This document shows positions 21,061 through 50,410 of a DNA stretch of 64,000 nt, piece by piece; positions within the stretch are counted from its first letter, which is position 1; the number at the start of each line of letters is the position of its first letter. The DNA comes from Thiomicrorhabdus cannonii (GTDB taxonomy: Bacteria > Pseudomonadota > Gammaproteobacteria > Thiomicrospirales > Thiomicrospiraceae): the NCBI RefSeq assembly GCF_013391695.1, contig NZ_JACBGH010000001.1, positions 372,001-436,000 on the forward strand. The letters run 5' to 3'. The translations under genes were made by a program, and so were the position numbers. The notes below the pieces were generated by a model. That model did not search any database. It saw only the letters and a list, made by a program, of their open reading frames with translations, and had not been told where the DNA came from.

Positions 21061-21408
21061 TTAAAGTTGCCCGTGGGCGATGAGCGGCAATACGCGGTAA
21101 CTGATGGTGGCGGTCGGCAATTCGGCTTTCAAGCTCGACAGAATCTGGTTGACCAGCGCCAGATCACACTCGATCTGCACCATCACCTTATGCTGATAAC
21201 CCGCCACCTGTTCGCGCAGCGTCAGCCTTTCCTGCGGCTGGCCATAGCCCTGCACGTCAATCACCGAGAAGAACAGCGGCGGGTTTTCAGCCAGCAGGCA
21301 ATCCACCACCTCGTTGACCTGCGCGACCGGCAGAATCAGGTGCAGCACCACCGCCGTGTCCGTGGTGCGCTCCAATGGGTGACTGAAATCGAAAGTCTGC
21401 GTTGTCAT
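21061..21408 (-). CDS. DUF3240 family protein linked to metal efflux
   Basis: 115 residues, cytoplasmic. The sequence (VVLHLILPVAQVNEVVDCLL, FSVIDVQGYG, VMVQIECDLALVNQILSSL) fits DUF3240, a small ferredoxin-like family usually encoded after CzcA/CusA-type RND pumps. Its ATG overlaps the RND gene's TGA (ATGA), implying translational coupling and a role tied to the pump, perhaps regulatory or metal-sensing; that role is inferred. Confidence 0.82.
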   Translation of the reverse strand: MTTQTFDFSHPLERTTDTAVVLHLILPVAQVNEVVDCLLAENPPLFFSVIDVQGYGQPQERLTLREQVAGYQHKVMVQIECDLALVNQILSSLKAELPTATISYRVLPLIAHGQL

Positions 21409-24400
21409 ACGGTTTTACCCTCCTGTTGTGTCAGCCCCAAGGCGCGCGCGCCGAACAGACGGTAGATAATCGGCAGAATCAGCAGTGTCAATAAGGTTGA
21501 AGAGATCAGACCGCCAATCACCACGATCGCCAACGGACGCTGGATTTCCGAACCTGGCCCGCTGGCGAACACCAACGGAATCAAACCCAAAGCCGCGATG
21601 CTTGCCGTCATCAACACCGGACGCAAGCGGCGCATGGCGCCTTCAATCACCACCTCCTGAATCGCCATGCCCTGCGCCAACAGTTGGTTGAAATAACTCA
21701 TCATCACCACGCCGTTCAAGACCGCAATCCCCAGCAGCGCAATAAAGCCAACCGAGGCCGGCACCGACAGGTACTCGCCGGTCAACCACAGCGCCACCAC
21801 TCCGCCGATCAAGGCAAACGGAATATTGGAGAGCACCATCGCCGCCTGTCCGGCCGAGCGGAAGGTGGAGAACAGAATCATAAAAATCAGCACCAGCGCC
21901 ACCGGCACCACAATGCTCAGGCGTTCGGCGGCGCGCTGCTGGTTCTCGAACTCCCCGCCCCACACAAAGTAGTAACCCGCCGGCGTCGGCAGCTGCGCCG
22001 CCTTGGCTTTGGCCTCTTCCACAAAACTCACCAGATCGCGCCCGCTGACATTGGCGACCACCACCGAGAAGCGTTTGCCGAGTTCGCGCTTGACCGCCAC
22101 CGGCCCGTCCACTTCCTGCACCTCAACAACCTGATTGAGCATCACGCTCTGGCCGTTTTCCAACACAATCGGCTGGTTTAGAAACGCCATTTGCGAGGCA
22201 CGCTGTGCTGCGTCGGCACGAATCAGCAACGGCACCTGACGGTTACCCTGATAGATAACGCCCAATCGCATGCCTTCCAGATAAGCACGCAGGCGCGCTT
22301 CCAACTCGTTCACCGACAAGCCCAAGCGACCGGCTTTGAGCGCATCGACTTTCAACTGCAGATATTTCATGCCGTCGTTCTGCGAGGTGAACACGTCTTC
22401 CGCACCGTCGATAGTTTCCACCAGCGCCGCCATTTGCTCGGCCAACGCACTAAGTTCAGCAGCGTCATCACCGAAAATCTTGATGGCCACATCGCCGCGC
22501 GCACCGGTCAACATCTCATCGACACGCATCTGAATCGGTTGGGTAAAGGCGTAGTTGATGCCCGGAAACTGGCTTTCCAATACCTGACGAATCTCCTCGA
22601 TCAACTCGTCTTTCGTCTGCATACGCCAGGTTTCCTTGGGCTTGAGCACCAGAAAGCTGTCGGTATCGTTCAAACTCATCGGGTCCAGACCGATTTCGTC
22701 CGACCCCAGACGCGCCACAATGCGCTCCACCTCGGGAACCTGCTGCAACAGCGCCTGCTGAATTTTCATGTCCAGATCACGCGAGGCTTCCAACGACACC
22801 GACGGCACTTTCTCGATCTGCACAATCAGGTCGCCCTCGTCCATTTGCGGCATAAAGGTCTTACCCACCTGCGTATAGAGCACGCCGGCCAGCGCCAACG
22901 CCGCAACCGCGGCTGCCAACACGATTTTGTCATGTGCCAGCGCCCAGATTAACAACGGACGGTAGCCTTGCGAAACCTTGCGCATCAGCCACGGCAAATC
23001 ATGCGACGGCTTGCCGAGAATAAACGAGGCAATGACCGGAATAATCGTCAGCGACAGCAGCAAGGCACTGCCCAACGCAAACACGATTGTCAGGGCCACC
23101 GGCACAAACAGTTTGCCCTCCAACCCCTGTAACGTCAGCAACGGCAGGAACACGATCATAATAATGCCGATACCCGAAATCACCGGCACCGCCACTTCCT
23201 GCAACGCGCGGAAAATAATATGCAGTTTAGGCAAACGGCCATGATGCAGATGCGCCTCCTTGGCCTGATGGGTGACGATGTTTTCGACCACCACCACGGC
23301 CGCATCCACCAGCATCCCGATGGCAATCGCCAAACCGCCGAGCGACATCAGGTTGGCCGACAGCCCGAACCAGTTCATGAAAATAAAGGTCATCAACGCC
23401 GCCAATGGCAACACCAGCGCCACGGTGACCGCGGCACGCACATTCCCCAAAAACAGCAACAGCAGCAGAATCACCAGCACCACCGCTTCCACCAACGCCT
23501 TGGAAACAGTATGGATCGCTTTGTCGATCAGATGGCCGCGATCATAGAAAATATCCACACTGATGCCTTGCGGCAGTGCCGGTTTCAAGGCTTCCAGCTG
23601 CGCACGCACCGCTTTGATGACATCGCTGGTATTGGCGCCGCGCAGACCGATGACCAAGCCTTCGACCGCTTCGGCCTTGCCGTTTTGCGTGACCGCGCCG
23701 TAACGCGTCAGCGACTCAATGCGTACCTTGGCAAGGTCGCGCACGCGAATCACCTGCTCGCCGCGTGTCGCCACCACGATGGCGCCGATATCCTCCAGCG
23801 AATTCAGATTACCGATACTGCGCACCAGCAACGCCTCTTCGCCCTGCGTCAGCCGTCCGGCGCCGTCATTGCGGTTATTGTCGAGTAGCGCCGTTTCCAA
23901 AGCGTCAAACGGGATCTGCATCGCCGCCATTTTGAGGCTGTCCGGTACCACGGCAAACACCCGCGCCTCGCCGCCCAGCGCATTCACATCGGCCACGCCG
24001 GGCACGGCACGCAACGCCGGACGAATCACCCAATCCAGCAGGTCGCGTTTTTCCATATTGTTGAGGGTGTCGCCTTCAATGGTGAACATGAAAATGTCGC
24101 CCAGCGGTGTCGTCATCGGCGCAATCCCGCCGGAGATGCCTTCCGGCAAACTCACCCCCGCCAAACGCTCGGCAATCTGCTGGCGCGCCCAATAGATATC
24201 AGTGCCTTCGACAAAATCGATGGTGATATCGGCAATACCGTATTTGCCCATGGAGCGCAGCATCTGCTGATTGGGTACGCCCAACAACTCCATCTCGATC
24301 GGCACGATAATGCGCGATTCGACTTCCGACGGCGTCATGCCCGGCGCTTTCATAATGATTTTGACCTGTGTCGGCGACACATCCGGAAAGGCGTCGATCG

Positions 24401-24503
24401 GCGTTTTCTGAAACGCCATCCAGCCGGCACCAATCAACCCCACCGCCAGCAACAGCGCCATCATGCGCTGTGCGAGGAAAAAACTCATAAAACGTGACAA
24501 CAT
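21405..24503 (-). CDS. Heavy-metal efflux RND permease (CzcA/CusA family)
   Basis: About 1032 residues from the ATG at 24503. Inner-membrane proton-driven pump of a tripartite exporter. It shows the HME-RND hallmarks: DAFPDVSPTQVKI after the first membrane helix, a large periplasmic loop, and in membrane helix 4 IGMLVDAAVVVVEN with the proton-relay Asp and Glu. The VDAA form is nearer the CusA and HME5-type branches than classical CzcA (VDGA), so the metal (Cu/Ag versus divalent ions) is left open. It lies 5 nt after the adaptor gene and overlaps DUF3240, within an operon led by the outer-membrane gene. Confidence 0.92.
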   Translation of the reverse strand: MLSRFMSFFLAQRMMALLLAVGLIGAGWMAFQKTPIDAFPDVSPTQVKIIMKAPGMTPSEVESRIIVPIEMELLGVPNQQMLRSMGKYGIADITIDFVEGTDIYWARQQIAERLAGVSLPEGISGGIAPMTTPLGDIFMFTIEGDTLNNMEKRDLLDWVIRPALRAVPGVADVNALGGEARVFAVVPDSLKMAAMQIPFDALETALLDNNRNDGAGRLTQGEEALLVRSIGNLNSLEDIGAIVVATRGEQVIRVRDLAKVRIESLTRYGAVTQNGKAEAVEGLVIGLRGANTSDVIKAVRAQLEALKPALPQGISVDIFYDRGHLIDKAIHTVSKALVEAVVLVILLLLLFLGNVRAAVTVALVLPLAALMTFIFMNWFGLSANLMSLGGLAIAIGMLVDAAVVVVENIVTHQAKEAHLHHGRLPKLHIIFRALQEVAVPVISGIGIIMIVFLPLLTLQGLEGKLFVPVALTIVFALGSALLLSLTIIPVIASFILGKPSHDLPWLMRKVSQGYRPLLIWALAHDKIVLAAAVAALALAGVLYTQVGKTFMPQMDEGDLIVQIEKVPSVSLEASRDLDMKIQQALLQQVPEVERIVARLGSDEIGLDPMSLNDTDSFLVLKPKETWRMQTKDELIEEIRQVLESQFPGINYAFTQPIQMRVDEMLTGARGDVAIKIFGDDAAELSALAEQMAALVETIDGAEDVFTSQNDGMKYLQLKVDALKAGRLGLSVNELEARLRAYLEGMRLGVIYQGNRQVPLLIRADAAQRASQMAFLNQPIVLENGQSVMLNQVVEVQEVDGPVAVKRELGKRFSVVVANVSGRDLVSFVEEAKAKAAQLPTPAGYYFVWGGEFENQQRAAERLSIVVPVALVLIFMILFSTFRSAGQAAMVLSNIPFALIGGVVALWLTGEYLSVPASVGFIALLGIAVLNGVVMMSYFNQLLAQGMAIQEVVIEGAMRRLRPVLMTASIAALGLIPLVFASGPGSEIQRPLAIVVIGGLISSTLLTLLILPIIYRLFGARALGLTQQEGKTV

Positions 24504-24508
24504 GAGAC

Positions 24509-25693
24509 TCACTCTCCCGATTCGGTTTGCGCCGCCATCACCGACAACATCGCCGCGGTGCCAAGCGTCAACACGCTCCAATGGGCAATATCCTCAGGGG
24601 CGTCATCCTTAAAACTCACCACGGCGGTTTGCCCGGGCTGCTCCAGTGTCTCTACCGCCAACGGGCTGATCCGGCTGGCATCGCGCGGCGAACGCATAAA
24701 CAGCGTGTTCTGTCCATCAACCTTGGTGACCGCACTTAACGGCACGGTGAAATGGCGACCTGTGGCCATGTCTTTAACAAAACTCACCTCCACCAGCGCG
24801 CCCACCGTCAGCTGCCACTGCGGATTGGGGAACAGGCAATGCACCTCCACCTGTTGCGTCAACGGATCGGCCTGATGGCTGACATAAGCGATCTCGCCGT
24901 CGATCCCTTCGTGCAAAAGTTGCGCTTTTTGCCCGACATGCAGTGTTCTGGCGACCTCGATCGGCACGTTGACACCGGCGACCAGCTTATCCAGTTCGGC
25001 AAATTTGGCGACCGCTTCACCGGCCTGCAGGCGCGTGCCGGCACTCAGACTTAATTCAAACAGTTCACCGTCAGCCGGCGCACGGATGGCAATGGTGGGC
25101 GACTGCAACTGATTACTGCTTTTCAGGCGGTTCACCGCCTCCTCCGCCATCCCCATCAGCAACAAATCCTGGGACTGCTGCTGTGCCTGCTGCTTGAGTC
25201 GGGTCACTTGCGACTCGGACGACTGCAGCTGCTTCTGCGACACGCTGCCGGCTTGAATCAGCTTGCGCGCACGGCTGACTTCGGCTTCGGCCACCGCCAG
25301 TTCGCTCAAAGTCGCCAGATAGGCTTTCTGCAATTTCAGCAGTTCGGCGCTCTGCAACTCCACAATCGCCTCACCGGCTTTGACCGCACCGTGGACTTTG
25401 AGAATACGCGTCACCAGTCCGTCGACCGGTGTGGCCAATAATTGGATGTGCGGTGCCGGCAGCGACAACAGCGCCGGATAACCATAGGAGGTCGCGCTGT
25501 CCGCCGGTTTGAGACCGGTAAACGCCATGCCCATCGACAGTTGCTGGGAGGGCGACAGTTGCAGCCCCGGCTGTGCGCTGAGGGCCGCGTGGCTCCACAT
25601 CAAACCGCCAAGCAGCGGAAGCGCCAGAGCCATCCCCCACAACGGGCGTTGGATACGGTTGGAAATCTGATGGATAAGATGTCGGTTTTGCAT
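24509..25693 (-). CDS. RND efflux periplasmic adaptor (CzcB/CusB-like)
   Basis: 394 residues joining the inner-membrane pump to the outer-membrane channel. An N-terminal membrane anchor or signal (about 18-40) is followed by a biotinyl/lipoyl half-motif PVDGLVTRILKVHGAVKAGEAIVEL, a coiled-coil hairpin rich in Gln (SVSQKQLQSSESQVTRLKQQAQQQ), and the second lipoyl half APADGELFELSLSAGTRLQAGE, then beta-barrel and membrane-proximal domains. AGGA lies 7 nt before the ATG. No extra metal-binding N-terminal domain is visible. Confidence 0.9.
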   Translation of the reverse strand: MQNRHLIHQISNRIQRPLWGMALALPLLGGLMWSHAALSAQPGLQLSPSQQLSMGMAFTGLKPADSATSYGYPALLSLPAPHIQLLATPVDGLVTRILKVHGAVKAGEAIVELQSAELLKLQKAYLATLSELAVAEAEVSRARKLIQAGSVSQKQLQSSESQVTRLKQQAQQQSQDLLLMGMAEEAVNRLKSSNQLQSPTIAIRAPADGELFELSLSAGTRLQAGEAVAKFAELDKLVAGVNVPIEVARTLHVGQKAQLLHEGIDGEIAYVSHQADPLTQQVEVHCLFPNPQWQLTVGALVEVSFVKDMATGRHFTVPLSAVTKVDGQNTLFMRSPRDASRISPLAVETLEQPGQTAVVSFKDDAPEDIAHWSVLTLGTAAMLSVMAAQTESGE

Positions 25694-25785: not shown

Positions 25786-27084
25786 TCAAGAAGCGCTCAC
25801 AACCCATTCCAATCCCAGTCCTAATGCCTGGCGCAGACGGGCCTTGGCCTGACCCACGGCAACAACCTGCAGGTCTTCATCCAGCAGGGCCTGCAACATC
25901 TGCGACTGCACCTGCAACAGCGTCTGGATAGGGGTTTCTCCAAGGGAATAGGCCTGTTCCGCCATGCTCAAGGCCTCCGCACTCACCTCGCGCTGCTGGC
26001 GGGAAACCGTCAGAAGTGCCTGCTCCTGTTGCAACGCCTGTTGCGCCAGCATTACCTCGCTGTGCAGTTGCTGCCGGGTTTTCTGCAGGGCGATTTGCTG
26101 CGCGCTGACCGCCTGTTGCTGCTCTTGCTGCGTGGTCTGATAGCTCGCCGATTTGCCGAGCGGCAGACGCATCTGCACAATCAGGCTGGTGCGTGCCGCA
26201 GTGGCGTCATCCTCTTCCGATTTGGCGCCGACAAACACATTGGGTTTAGTTTGCGCCTGAACCAAGGTGACCTGCTGTTGAGCCTCGGCCTGCTGCAACT
26301 GCTGCTCGGCCCACTGCCATTGCGGATGCTGCGCCAACAACGCATTCAAATCGCCGTTTTGCGCGGGAACGCTCTCTTCGATTTGCAACGGCAGGGAATC
26401 GAAACCGCTCCAATACTGATAGGCGGCCAGTCGTTGCTGATAGACGTTATAGGCGGCCAAGGTCTGTTTTTCGGCCGAAAGCCGCTCTTTTTGCACCAGC
26501 ACCGCATCCATTTTCGGCACCTCGCCGCTGTCGGCCGATGCACTCACTTTGTCGGCCAAAGCCGCAATCAGCCCCTGATTCTGCTGCAAGCGCTGCCATT
26601 GCACCTCGGCCCGCTTGAGTTCCCACACCAGCTGGCGCGTCAGTGCCGCCGCCTGCCATTGCAGCAATTTGGCATAACGTTCGCCGTGTTGCTGATAGCT
26701 TTCGCCAAGCTGTTGATAAGACTGCCGTTGGTTCAGCGACAGATCAAAATCGACGCCGCTTTCCCAACTCTTAAAGCCGGTATTGTCGGTCAGCGCATCG
26801 TTTTCGTGGCGCACCGTCAGATTCACGCCGTTGGCGAACCAGCTGTCGCCTGCCTGGAGGTATCGGCTCGACAAGGCATCGAACTGCGGCAACGCCTGTT
26901 TGTCGGGCTGCTTGGCCATCACGGCCTGCCACACACTTTGCAGCGATTCGGGAGACGGTGAACCGGCATGGACGTTGGTTGCCAGCAAGCAACTCAACGC
27001 CAGCACCAGTGGACGATTGGTTTGGAACGGAGATTTAAGAAAACCGTGAATGACGGTTTGAAAACACAGCAACGCTGTTGGCAT
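25786..27084 (-). CDS. TolC-like outer-membrane efflux protein
   Basis: 432 residues from the ATG at 27084, which has GGAG 6 nt upstream; an in-frame ATG at 27096 lacks a ribosome site. The N-terminus has a hydrophobic export signal ending near HAGS. The rest is alpha-helical and very rich in Gln (QLGESYQQHGERYAKLLQWQ, QQEQQQAVSAQQIALQKTRQQL), as in CzcC-type outer-membrane factors. It is the first gene of the efflux operon and lies just downstream of a direct-repeat operator and -10-like hexamer (27124-27156). Confidence 0.87.
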   Translation of the reverse strand: MPTALLCFQTVIHGFLKSPFQTNRPLVLALSCLLATNVHAGSPSPESLQSVWQAVMAKQPDKQALPQFDALSSRYLQAGDSWFANGVNLTVRHENDALTDNTGFKSWESGVDFDLSLNQRQSYQQLGESYQQHGERYAKLLQWQAAALTRQLVWELKRAEVQWQRLQQNQGLIAALADKVSASADSGEVPKMDAVLVQKERLSAEKQTLAAYNVYQQRLAAYQYWSGFDSLPLQIEESVPAQNGDLNALLAQHPQWQWAEQQLQQAEAQQQVTLVQAQTKPNVFVGAKSEEDDATAARTSLIVQMRLPLGKSASYQTTQQEQQQAVSAQQIALQKTRQQLHSEVMLAQQALQQEQALLTVSRQQREVSAEALSMAEQAYSLGETPIQTLLQVQSQMLQALLDEDLQVVAVGQAKARLRQALGLGLEWVVSAS

Positions 27085-27123
27085 AGCACACTCCATTAAG
27101 GGAATTTTGATTCATTCCCGTTT

Positions 27124-27156
27124 ACTCTACAAAAGCAAGCTGAAATGAAGCTGAAA
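27124..27156 (-). promoter_or_regulatory. Operator and promoter of the metal-efflux operon
   Basis: On the reverse strand the half-site TTTCAGCTT occurs twice (27156-27148 and 27145-27137), one DNA turn (11 bp) apart, followed 6 bp later by a -10-like TAGAGT (27129-27124). The same arrangement stands before the regulator gene at 29.25 kb (17 of 21 bases shared, identical 6-bp spacing). This is typical of class II promoters of OmpR/PhoP-family regulators. Confidence 0.72.
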
Positions 27157-27185
27157 TGTGCTTATAAATAAGAAGACGAAACGTT

Positions 27186-28544
27186 TTAAAGTGGCAGACG
27201 CACCGTGACCTGCAGCCCGCTCAGCGCCGCCTCATGCGGCAGCCAGCGTTCGCCGGAACCGTATTTGACTTCGCCGCCGTAGGCTGCCACCACCTGAGCC
27301 ACAATCGACAATCCCAAACCGTGGCCAGGCTGGGATTCATCGAGACGCGCGCCGCGCTGCTGCATGGCCAGAACATCCGCTGCCGACACGCCGCTGCCGT
27401 CGTCTTCAATCTGCATCAACAGGCAGGGCTGCTGGTTAAAAAGCGCCTGTTTGACGACGATGCGGATATGCGTACGGCTCCATTTGGCGGCATTGTCGAG
27501 CAGATTGCCGAGCAGCTCGAACATATCTTCGCGGTCAAACGGCGTGGCTTCCTGCAAGGCCACATGGCACTCGAAGCGCAGGGATTTATCGCGATAGAGC
27601 GATTGCAGGGTTTGCAGCAGATCATCCAAATCGTCCGGAAAGCGGAAAGCATTCAAAACCATGCCGCTGCCGGCGGTGCGCGCCAGGCCCAATTCGCGCT
27701 CAATCAAATCCAGCACGCGTTTTGCCTGCTCTTGCAAACGCTGCTGCAATTCGGGATGCGCCTGCAGGCGCGTATCGTCAAGCAATTGATAGATCAGATT
27801 CAGCGGCGACTTTAACGCATGCGCCAGATTGCCGGTGGCCTGGCGTGAACGCGCCAGACGGGCGTGCAACTGCGACAAGGCCTGATTGAGCGTTTCCACC
27901 AGCGGCATGATTTCCGCCGGCACCTCGGTATGAATGCTCACCTCTTTGCCTTGCTGCACCTCGCCGAGCGCCGCCCTTACCGGCTGCAACGTATCAAACC
28001 CGCGCTGCAGAATCTTGCGCTGACTCCACAACAACAGTATCAATCCCAACAGCGAAAACAGCGCAAAGATGCCGTCAAACCAGCGCAGCGCCTGTCGGAT
28101 CGGCGTATGGTCCTCGGCCACAAACAAATGACCTTCATAGCCGTGAACGTTAAAGCGGGTATGCAGAACCAGCGCCTCGGTATCGCCGGGCGCGCGGGTT
28201 TCATACGAACCGGCTGGTGAATTGATGGGGCTGTAGAGCGGGAAATCCCCCATGGAGGGAGACGACAAGGAGGCGATCAGCGGGTTGTCGGACTTGACCA
28301 GATAGTAGTGCCCCGACAGTGGACGCTGGTAAATCACTTCGGCGGCATTTTCGCCCATCTGCCAGCGGCCGTTTTCCAGCGAAAGGTGCTTGATAAGGGT
28401 TTCGGCATCATGCTCCAGACGGGTCACAATATAACGCTCGGTCAGCTGGTGAATGGTATAGGTGGTCACCCACCAGAACACCACAAAAATGGCCGCCAAA
28501 CTCAGCGTCAAGCCGTAAGTCAGTTGTTTTTGCAAGGATTGCAT
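27186..28544 (-). CDS. Sensor histidine kinase (PhoQ-like HisKA family)
   Basis: 452-residue inner-membrane kinase. Membrane segments at about 9-30 and 154-174 enclose a periplasmic sensor of ~120 residues; a HAMP-like linker follows. The phospho-acceptor is H242 in GNLAHALKSPLNLIYQL, whose LAH-LKxPL form is like PhoQ and related kinases. The ATPase domain has a LLGNLLDNAAKWS N-box, EDDGSG and GHGLGLSI. It starts 7 nt after the regulator gene. Position and shared operators make it the likely sensor for the adjacent metal-efflux operon. Confidence 0.9.
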   Translation of the reverse strand: MQSLQKQLTYGLTLSLAAIFVVFWWVTTYTIHQLTERYIVTRLEHDAETLIKHLSLENGRWQMGENAAEVIYQRPLSGHYYLVKSDNPLIASLSSPSMGDFPLYSPINSPAGSYETRAPGDTEALVLHTRFNVHGYEGHLFVAEDHTPIRQALRWFDGIFALFSLLGLILLLWSQRKILQRGFDTLQPVRAALGEVQQGKEVSIHTEVPAEIMPLVETLNQALSQLHARLARSRQATGNLAHALKSPLNLIYQLLDDTRLQAHPELQQRLQEQAKRVLDLIERELGLARTAGSGMVLNAFRFPDDLDDLLQTLQSLYRDKSLRFECHVALQEATPFDREDMFELLGNLLDNAAKWSRTHIRIVVKQALFNQQPCLLMQIEDDGSGVSAADVLAMQQRGARLDESQPGHGLGLSIVAQVVAAYGGEVKYGSGERWLPHEAALSGLQVTVRLPL

Positions 28545-28551
28545 GATCGCC

Positions 28552-29223
28552 TCACTTTACCGATAGATAGCGGTAGCCCTGGCCGCGCTGGGTCTGGATT
28601 CGCTCTTTGCCGATCAATTTGCGCAGGCGGCGGATATACACCTCCAGCACATTGCTGTCGCGGTCATAATGCTGGTCGACGATTTTCGCCATAATCTCCG
28701 ATTTGGCGTGCAATTTATCCGGCTGGCTCATCAGCAGCCGCAGCAGCCGGAATTCGGTATGGGTTAGATCATGCATCTGCCCATCGGGGGTCTGCAAACG
28801 CTGGGTTTGCAGATTCAAACGCAACCCGCCATCCTCAATTTCGTGATTTACGCCCACCTCCCCCTGCGAGCGGCGCAGCAGATTCTGAATGCGCACCAGC
28901 AACTCTTCAAAATGGAACGGCTTACCCACATAATCATCCGCGCCGGCCTTGAGCCCTTCCACCCTCTCCTGCCACGCATTACGCGCGGTGAGTATCAGTA
29001 CCGGCGTGGCATTTTGGGCCTCGCGCAGGTTTTTTAAAATGGACAGGCCGGGTATTTTAGGCAAGCCCAGATCCAGAATCAGCAGATCATAGGGATGCTC
29101 CTCCAGCAGATAGGCCGCCTCCTCGCCATCAAGTGCGCAGTCCACCACAAAACCGTGCTGCGTGAGCTGCCGGCTCAAGGTCTCCACCAACAGAGTTTCA
29201 TCTTCCGCCAATAAAATTTTCAT
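28552..29223 (-). CDS. OmpR/PhoB-family response regulator of the efflux locus
   Basis: 223 residues from the ATG at 29223, which has GAAGAGA about 9 nt upstream. The receiver domain opens MKILLAEDETLL and has phospho-acceptor D51 in LILDLGLP and K at GKPF. The C-terminal winged helix ends RDSNVLEVYIRRLRKLIG...GQGYRYLS, the classical OmpR-type recognition pattern. It heads a two-gene operon with the kinase and has its own copy of the direct-repeat operator upstream, so autoregulation is likely. A copy of the dispersed word core (29043-29053) lies in the coding region and encodes part of KIPGL. Confidence 0.92.
   Translation of the reverse strand: MKILLAEDETLLVETLSRQLTQHGFVVDCALDGEEAAYLLEEHPYDLLILDLGLPKIPGLSILKNLREAQNATPVLILTARNAWQERVEGLKAGADDYVGKPFHFEELLVRIQNLLRRSQGEVGVNHEIEDGGLRLNLQTQRLQTPDGQMHDLTHTEFRLLRLLMSQPDKLHAKSEIMAKIVDQHYDRDSNVLEVYIRRLRKLIGKERIQTQRGQGYRYLSVK
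29036..29053 (+). repeat. Dispersed word, 15/18 copy inside the regulator gene
   Basis: Core ACAGGCCGGGT exact, three differences in the 5' part, opposite strand to the gene. Confidence 0.45.
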
Positions 29224-29248
29224 AGTCAACGTCTCTTCAAGACACTCC

Positions 29249-29281
29249 ATCTTAAACGTCCAGCCTGAATTAAAGCTGAAA
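29249..29281 (-). promoter_or_regulatory. Operator and promoter of the regulator operon
   Basis: Reverse strand TTTCAGCTT followed after 2 nt by ATTCAGGCTG, then 6 bp and a -10-like TAAGAT (29254-29249). It aligns base by base with the operator at 27124-27156, supporting positive autoregulation plus activation of the efflux genes. Confidence 0.72.
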
Positions 29282-29311: not shown

Positions 29312-29344
29312 AAAAAAGCCCGCTCCTCGAAGAGGAACGGGCTT
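29312..29344 (-). terminator. Terminator after ybiT
   Basis: AAGCCCG-TTCCTC / GAGGAG-CGGGCTT stem with a short TTCG-containing loop, then TTTTTT on the reverse strand, 37 nt past the ybiT stop. Confidence 0.82.
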
Positions 29345-49670: not shown

Positions 49671-50410
49671 AATCCTGCTCCACCAAAGCACTGCTGCTCT
49701 CTATCGTCATTTACGGCCTGTTGCTGACCGTGGGGGTTTGGCTGTTTAACCGCCCGATTGAAGAGATCAAACCATTGCAAACCGTGCCGATTAGCTTGGC
49801 CATGTTTCAAACACCGAGCGCGGAACCTAAGCCCGAACCTAAGCCCGAACCTAAGCCCGAACCTAAGCCCGAACCTAAGCCCGAACCTAAGCCCGAACCT
49901 AAGCCCGAACCTAAACCCGAGCCTAAACCCGAGCCTAAACCCGAGCCTAAACCCGAGCCTAAACCCGAGCCTAAACCCGAGCCTAAACCCGAGCCTAAAC
50001 CCGAGCCTAAACCCGAGCCTAAACCCGAGCCTAAACCCGAGCCTCAAATCACCGCTACCAAAACAGAGGCGGCCCCCATTGCCCAATTCAGTGCGCAACA
50101 GACCGCCAATGACGAGCAGCAATATCTGTCAGAGCTGCGCAATACCATTATGCAACACGCGGCGCACAGCTATCCCCGTCAGGCCAAACGCCGTCACTGG
50201 GAGGGGATTGCGACTCTCCAATTCACACTTCTGCCCGACGGCAGAATAACCGGTCTTGCGCTACTCGACTCCTCGGGCAAAAGCCTGCTCGATGAAGCCG
50301 CTTTGGACATTATCCGGGAGCGCATGGCCAATCGTTTCCGGCCTTTTCCCGACTCCGTTTCGCGCCGTCAGTGGTCGATTCAAGTTCCCGTAAGCTTCCG
50401 TTTGCAATAA
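49667..50410 (+). CDS. tonB: TonB energy-transducing protein with long KPEP repeat
   Basis: 247 residues: N-terminal anchor (about 10-28), a periplasm-spanning Pro/Lys/Glu stretch (about 54-126), and a C-terminal TonB domain with [24 protein letters not shown] and [15 protein letters not shown]. It passes proton-motive energy to outer-membrane receptors for iron chelates or vitamins. The spanning region is 18 uniform PKPE units, coded by a 12-bp tandem repeat. No receptor gene is adjacent. Confidence 0.92.
49826..50041 (+). repeat. 12-bp tandem repeat (18 units) in tonB
   Basis: Seven units of CCTAAGCCCGAA are followed by eleven of CCTAAACCCGAG, all in frame and encoding PKPE. The two homogeneous blocks point to two recent expansions by slippage or unequal exchange. 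Confidence 0.95.

Follow-up and report, generated by a model that had tools for sequence, protein, structure and literature searches.

The described systems closest to the one analyzed here include BqsR/CarR of Pseudomonas aeruginosa, the OmpR-class regulator of the Fe2+-responsive BqsRS system. The BqsR operator is TTAAG-N6-TTAAG, one of its pentamers doubling as a contact for RNA polymerase (PMC4682146), and the kinase partner of BqsR, BqsS, directly senses Fe2+ (PMC12666569). For FeuP of Sinorhizobium meliloti, a candidate site TTCA-N7-TTCA has been reported (PMC3616915). The CusRS, CzcRS and SilRS systems do the same job as the system described below, each being a local two-component system beside an HME-RND pump. 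The box recognized by PmrA is TTAAG-like. A direct description of TTTCAG/TTCAG operators was not found in the literature.

The locus lies in a 64,000-nucleotide stretch of the Thiomicrorhabdus cannonii genome (to be referred to as the window). All of its features are on the minus strand, in the order ABC-F gene, terminator-like hairpin, site 2, regulator, kinase, site 1, TolC-like gene, adaptor, RND pump and DUF3240 gene. The hairpin (13 bp, followed by a T-run; 29316–29344) is located at the end of the upstream ABC-F gene, and a similar one is present in the nearest relative (G016). As the hairpin and T-run would terminate the ABC-F gene, the regulator (28552–29223) probably needs a promoter of its own. 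The sensor histidine kinase (27186–28544) has a PhoQ/PmrB-like kinase core. The pump operon consists of a TolC-like outer-membrane factor (25786–27084, with an alternative start at 27096; PF02321), a periplasmic adaptor of the CusB/HlyD type (24509–25693; PF16576), an HME-RND pump of the CusA/CzcA family (21405–24506) and, in last position, a DUF3240 protein (21061–21408; PF11582). The pump scores 1020.8 bits against the CusA/CzcA HME-RND model TIGR00914, above the curated cut-off of 701. Its best solved relative in a search of the Protein Data Bank is ZneA (687 bits), followed by CusA (580 bits), and the first place of ZneA only hints at divalent cations for this pump. In the alignment with CusA, the pump apparently has acidic residues in place of the second and third methionines of the CusA metal-binding triad.

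The regulator combines a receiver domain (PF00072, 6e-28) with a winged-helix domain (Trans_reg_C, PF00486, 1e-19), the domain composition of the OmpR/PhoB class. PmrA/BasR is its best full-length match in the Protein Data Bank, and the PmrA model NF007928 is its best NCBIfam match, yet the score of 190.4 bits lies below the curated cut-off of 330. Among receiver-only chains, the closest to the regulator is one named CarR, which we take to be the P. aeruginosa protein. There is a difference from the CusRS, CzcRS and SilRS systems. The regulator (167.8 bits against the CzcR/SilR/CopR model TIGR01387, cut-off 279) and the kinase (65.8 bits against the CzcS/SilS/CopS model TIGR01386, cut-off 292.6) are both under the curated cut-offs and fall outside those subfamilies. 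By similarity scores, rather than by a tree, the regulator is nearer to PmrA/BqsR than to the heavy-metal regulators CusR/CzcR. The periplasmic region of the kinase carries TRLxHDxE and SGHYF motifs that are common to its relatives, and no metal-specific sensor domain was recognized.

Site 1, at the predicted pump promoter (27136–27156), has the form TTTCAG-N5-TTTCAG, with half-sites at 27151–27156 and 27140–27145. Read on the reverse strand from 27156 down to 27124, the sequence is TTTCAGCTTCATTTCAGCTTG-CTTTTG-TAGAGT, where TAGAGT (27124–27129) is a -10-like hexamer that has TAnnnT counterparts at equal spacing in relatives. Site 2, at the predicted regulator promoter (29261–29281), has the form TTTCAG-N5-ATTCAG, with half-sites at 29276–29281 and 29265–29270. 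From 29281 down to 29249 it reads TTTCAGCTTTAATTCAGGCTG-GACGTT-TAAGAT, ending in the -10-like hexamer TAAGAT (29249–29254). Direct comparison agrees with the original prediction that the two sites share 17 of 21 bases and that a TANNNT-type hexamer follows 6 bp past each of them. Their arrangement, tandem direct repeats with a period of about 11 bp near the -35 position, is that of OmpR/PhoB-class operators.

The operator resembles that of BqsR in its pentamers placed 11 bp apart around an N6 spacer, the middle base being different (TTCAG here, TTAAG for BqsR). Many sites are predicted in the genome for BqsR, compared to two here, where the predicted target is an HME-RND pump. The core and the period of 11 are also found in the FeuP candidate site. 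In comparison, FeuP belongs to a different lineage and has glucan export and symbiosis genes as its targets.

The sites are rare in the genome, where all genome-wide statements refer to pattern searches. The operator pattern proposed earlier, TTCAGCT-N4-TTCAGSY, has exactly two matches without mismatch in the window, namely sites 1 and 2. With TTTCAGNTTNNWTTCAGNT-N8-TANNNT and at most one mismatch, the same two sites are the sole matches in the 2.49-Mb genome, and the reversed pattern, as a control under the same conditions, has none. TANNNT is built into this search pattern; the hexamer had already emerged, with identical spacing, in an earlier scan that did not include it. A weight matrix trained solely on the pump sites of relatives gives 44.3 for site 1 and 25.7 for site 2, compared with 5.9 for the next best position in the 64 kb. 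The metal-efflux regulon of the original prediction would consist of the two sites themselves, and no site beyond them was found in the genome. Other genomic places with two mismatches (L003–L008) were considered as regulon members and are not counted, because their matrix scores are all below 9. A tandem repeat with a 12-bp period (TTAGGCTCGGGT; window positions 49909–50034) contains many weak matches to the pattern and is unrelated to the operator. It largely accounts for the excess of three-mismatch matches in the window.

The operator is present in 27 of the 32 Thiomicrorhabdus genomes, and the reversed-pattern control gave zero matches in the same 32. The genus consensus is TTTCAGnTTCA(A/T)TTCAGnTT(C/G), followed by six less conserved bases and TAnnnT, and site 1 matches it without mismatch. 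In all 20 of the syntenic loci examined, the order is regulator, kinase, operator and pump genes; in one locus (L087), similarity did not reveal the outer-membrane and adaptor genes. The regulator and the operator are both present in 26 of the 32 genomes and both missing in 4, and the two discordant genomes (G016 and G023) are accounted for by contig ends. The hypergeometric chance of such agreement, computed by hand and ignoring relatedness, is about 7e-4. An orthologous pump (at least 65% identity) is found in 29 genomes. In genome G021 (L211:4058-9572), which retains a pump of 67% identity, the regulator, kinase and operator are all absent from the vicinity of the pump and an unrelated gene lies upstream, an apparent natural loss of control.

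Because the pump copy is kept throughout the genus, the regulator very probably docks at site 1. Sequence comparison supports the earlier interpretation in part: the sites behave like operators of the OmpR/PhoB-family regulator encoded next to them, and the pump promoter is marked in this way genus-wide. Both sites are real and are very probably operators of this regulator.

Further matches were observed elsewhere in the genus. In G008, an operator match (L097:2398-2430) lies upstream of a DUF2202 lipoprotein, which suggests a further regulon member in that genome. In G024, a second exact operator (L095:79-111) is located at a contig edge and reads off the contig. In many Thiomicrorhabdus genomes (L185–L191, L193–L196 and L200), a variant of the word, TTTCAT-N5-(A/T)TTCAG/T, is found together with a -10-like hexamer ahead of a membrane protein that carries a LuxR-type HTH (GerE), and coaBC-like genes lie alongside in several of these loci. 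No homologue of this membrane protein was found in the genome of the window.

The position of the sites relative to the promoters bears on how they would act. As the original prediction stated, the sites overlap the position where a -35 element would lie. Inspection of the consensus columns finds no TTGACA-like element at 16–18 bp from the hexamer. Scanning for sigma-70 promoters yields no consensus match at site 1 or site 2, as expected since the -35 is missing. The absent -35 fits a sigma-70 promoter that depends on an activator. An operator that overlaps the promoter core could also serve a repressor, with the bound regulator blocking RNA polymerase. This is very unlikely, since a promoter with no TTGACA-like -35 at 16–18 bp from the consensus hexamer needs help, and BqsR, with an equal layout, is an activator.

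It is highly likely, instead, that the sites are operators through which the neighboring OmpR/PhoB-class regulator activates both the pump operon and its own gene, from sigma-70 promoters that have a -10 and no -35. In the proposed mechanism, a dimer of the phosphorylated regulator would bind the two TTCAG half-sites, which are 11 bp, or one helical turn, apart and lie on the same face of the DNA. The bound dimer would be centered at the expected -35 position and would contact RNA polymerase. From site 1, it would activate the operon of the tripartite HME-RND pump (TolC-like factor, adaptor, pump and DUF3240 protein). From site 2, it would raise expression of the regulator and the kinase themselves, a positive feedback loop. 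The signal read by the kinase in the periplasm is presumably the substrate of the pump, and this is probably a metal cation. Three elements of this mechanism are inferred: binding by the protein, a positive direction of control, and a metal signal.

The case for site 2 is different from that for site 1. In the 20 relatives scanned, the 350 bp ahead of the regulator gave no counterpart of it, a comparison that leaves aside the nearest relative, G016, where the contig stops at the terminator that precedes the regulator. The second half of site 2 (ATTCAGGC) is also weaker, and its matrix score of 25.7 is below the range of the pump sites (35–51). Site 2 could for these reasons be a chance or decayed look-alike, with site 1 the genuine operator and no autoregulation through site 2. 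We consider this unlikely. The score corresponds to p of about 1e-10 to 1e-9 per position, and the chance of reaching it anywhere in the 138-bp region upstream of the regulator, on both strands, is about 3e-8 to 3e-7, depending on base composition. Site 2 is the sole other match in the genome, and it is placed between the terminator and the start codon of the regulator, on the right strand and with the same -10 spacing as site 1. Moreover, in other families the operator stands at the head of an operon that contains the regulator. Autoregulation through site 2 is likely in T. cannonii, yet it looks lineage-specific, because a site at the regulator gene was found in this genome only. The suggestion that the regulator and the pump are switched on together stands for this genome, where both carry sites. 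It does not extend to the relatives scanned, in none of which a copy at the regulator gene was found, and joint switching would be a local feature.

The operator is also found outside Thiomicrorhabdus. Five further genomes in a sample of 369 from the class have exact matches, and the reversed control has none in the same sample. In the first (G093), the order is operator-OEP-MFP-RND, with a pump of 64% identity, in the same locus as cytochrome b561-PepSY-regulator-kinase, and in the second (G194) it is regulator-kinase-operator-OEP. The third (G074) has operator-cytochrome b561-PepSY-regulator-kinase, G277 is similar, and in G168 the operator is upstream of a cytochrome b gene. Many of the 80 named relatives of the regulator have PepSY directly upstream. 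The loci of these 80 relatives contain TTCAG-N6-TTCAG 13 times, one of them in Thiomicrorhabdus; the 12 occurrences in the 79 other loci compare with about 1 expected and are mostly just upstream of the regulator. An unbiased scan of these 79 loci for repeated pentamers places GTTCA/TTCAG at the top at period 11 only. Together, the matches in other families, the excess of TTCAG-N6-TTCAG and the pentamer scan indicate that the operator belongs to a branch of regulators and not to this locus alone.

These observations bear on whether a different transcription factor, encoded elsewhere, binds the repeats, the neighborhood of the two-component system being incidental. Words of this type could be read by several factors, because in some relatives the related TTTCAT-N5-TTCAG/T lies, at another place, ahead of the membrane LuxR-type protein. 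A foreign factor is nevertheless extremely unlikely here, as the operator co-occurs with and adjoins this regulator both genus-wide and in other families, and related regulators of the OmpR family are known to use tandem pentamers at 11 bp.

With the adjacent regulator as the protein that would read the repeats, a broader history can be put forward tentatively, with somewhat less than even confidence. A widespread branch of BqsR/FeuP/PmrA-like two-component systems may read TTCAG-N6-TTCAG across the Proteobacteria and, in most lineages, control cytochrome b561/PepSY operons. It may have been rewired to an HME-RND pump in Thiomicrorhabdus and a few others, with a second, autoregulatory copy added in this species.

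The paired sites are, as predicted here, an ordinary but newly mapped switch, with an operator that resembles the BqsR and FeuP sites. They provide an operator, open to testing, for a branch of two-component systems that is widespread and little studied, and would tie that branch to metal efflux in the sulfur oxidizers of Thiomicrorhabdus. They also offer a natural comparison, in which a pump, a cytochrome/PepSY operon or the two together appear to have come under one regulator, whose own gene would be subject to feedback in some cases and not in others.
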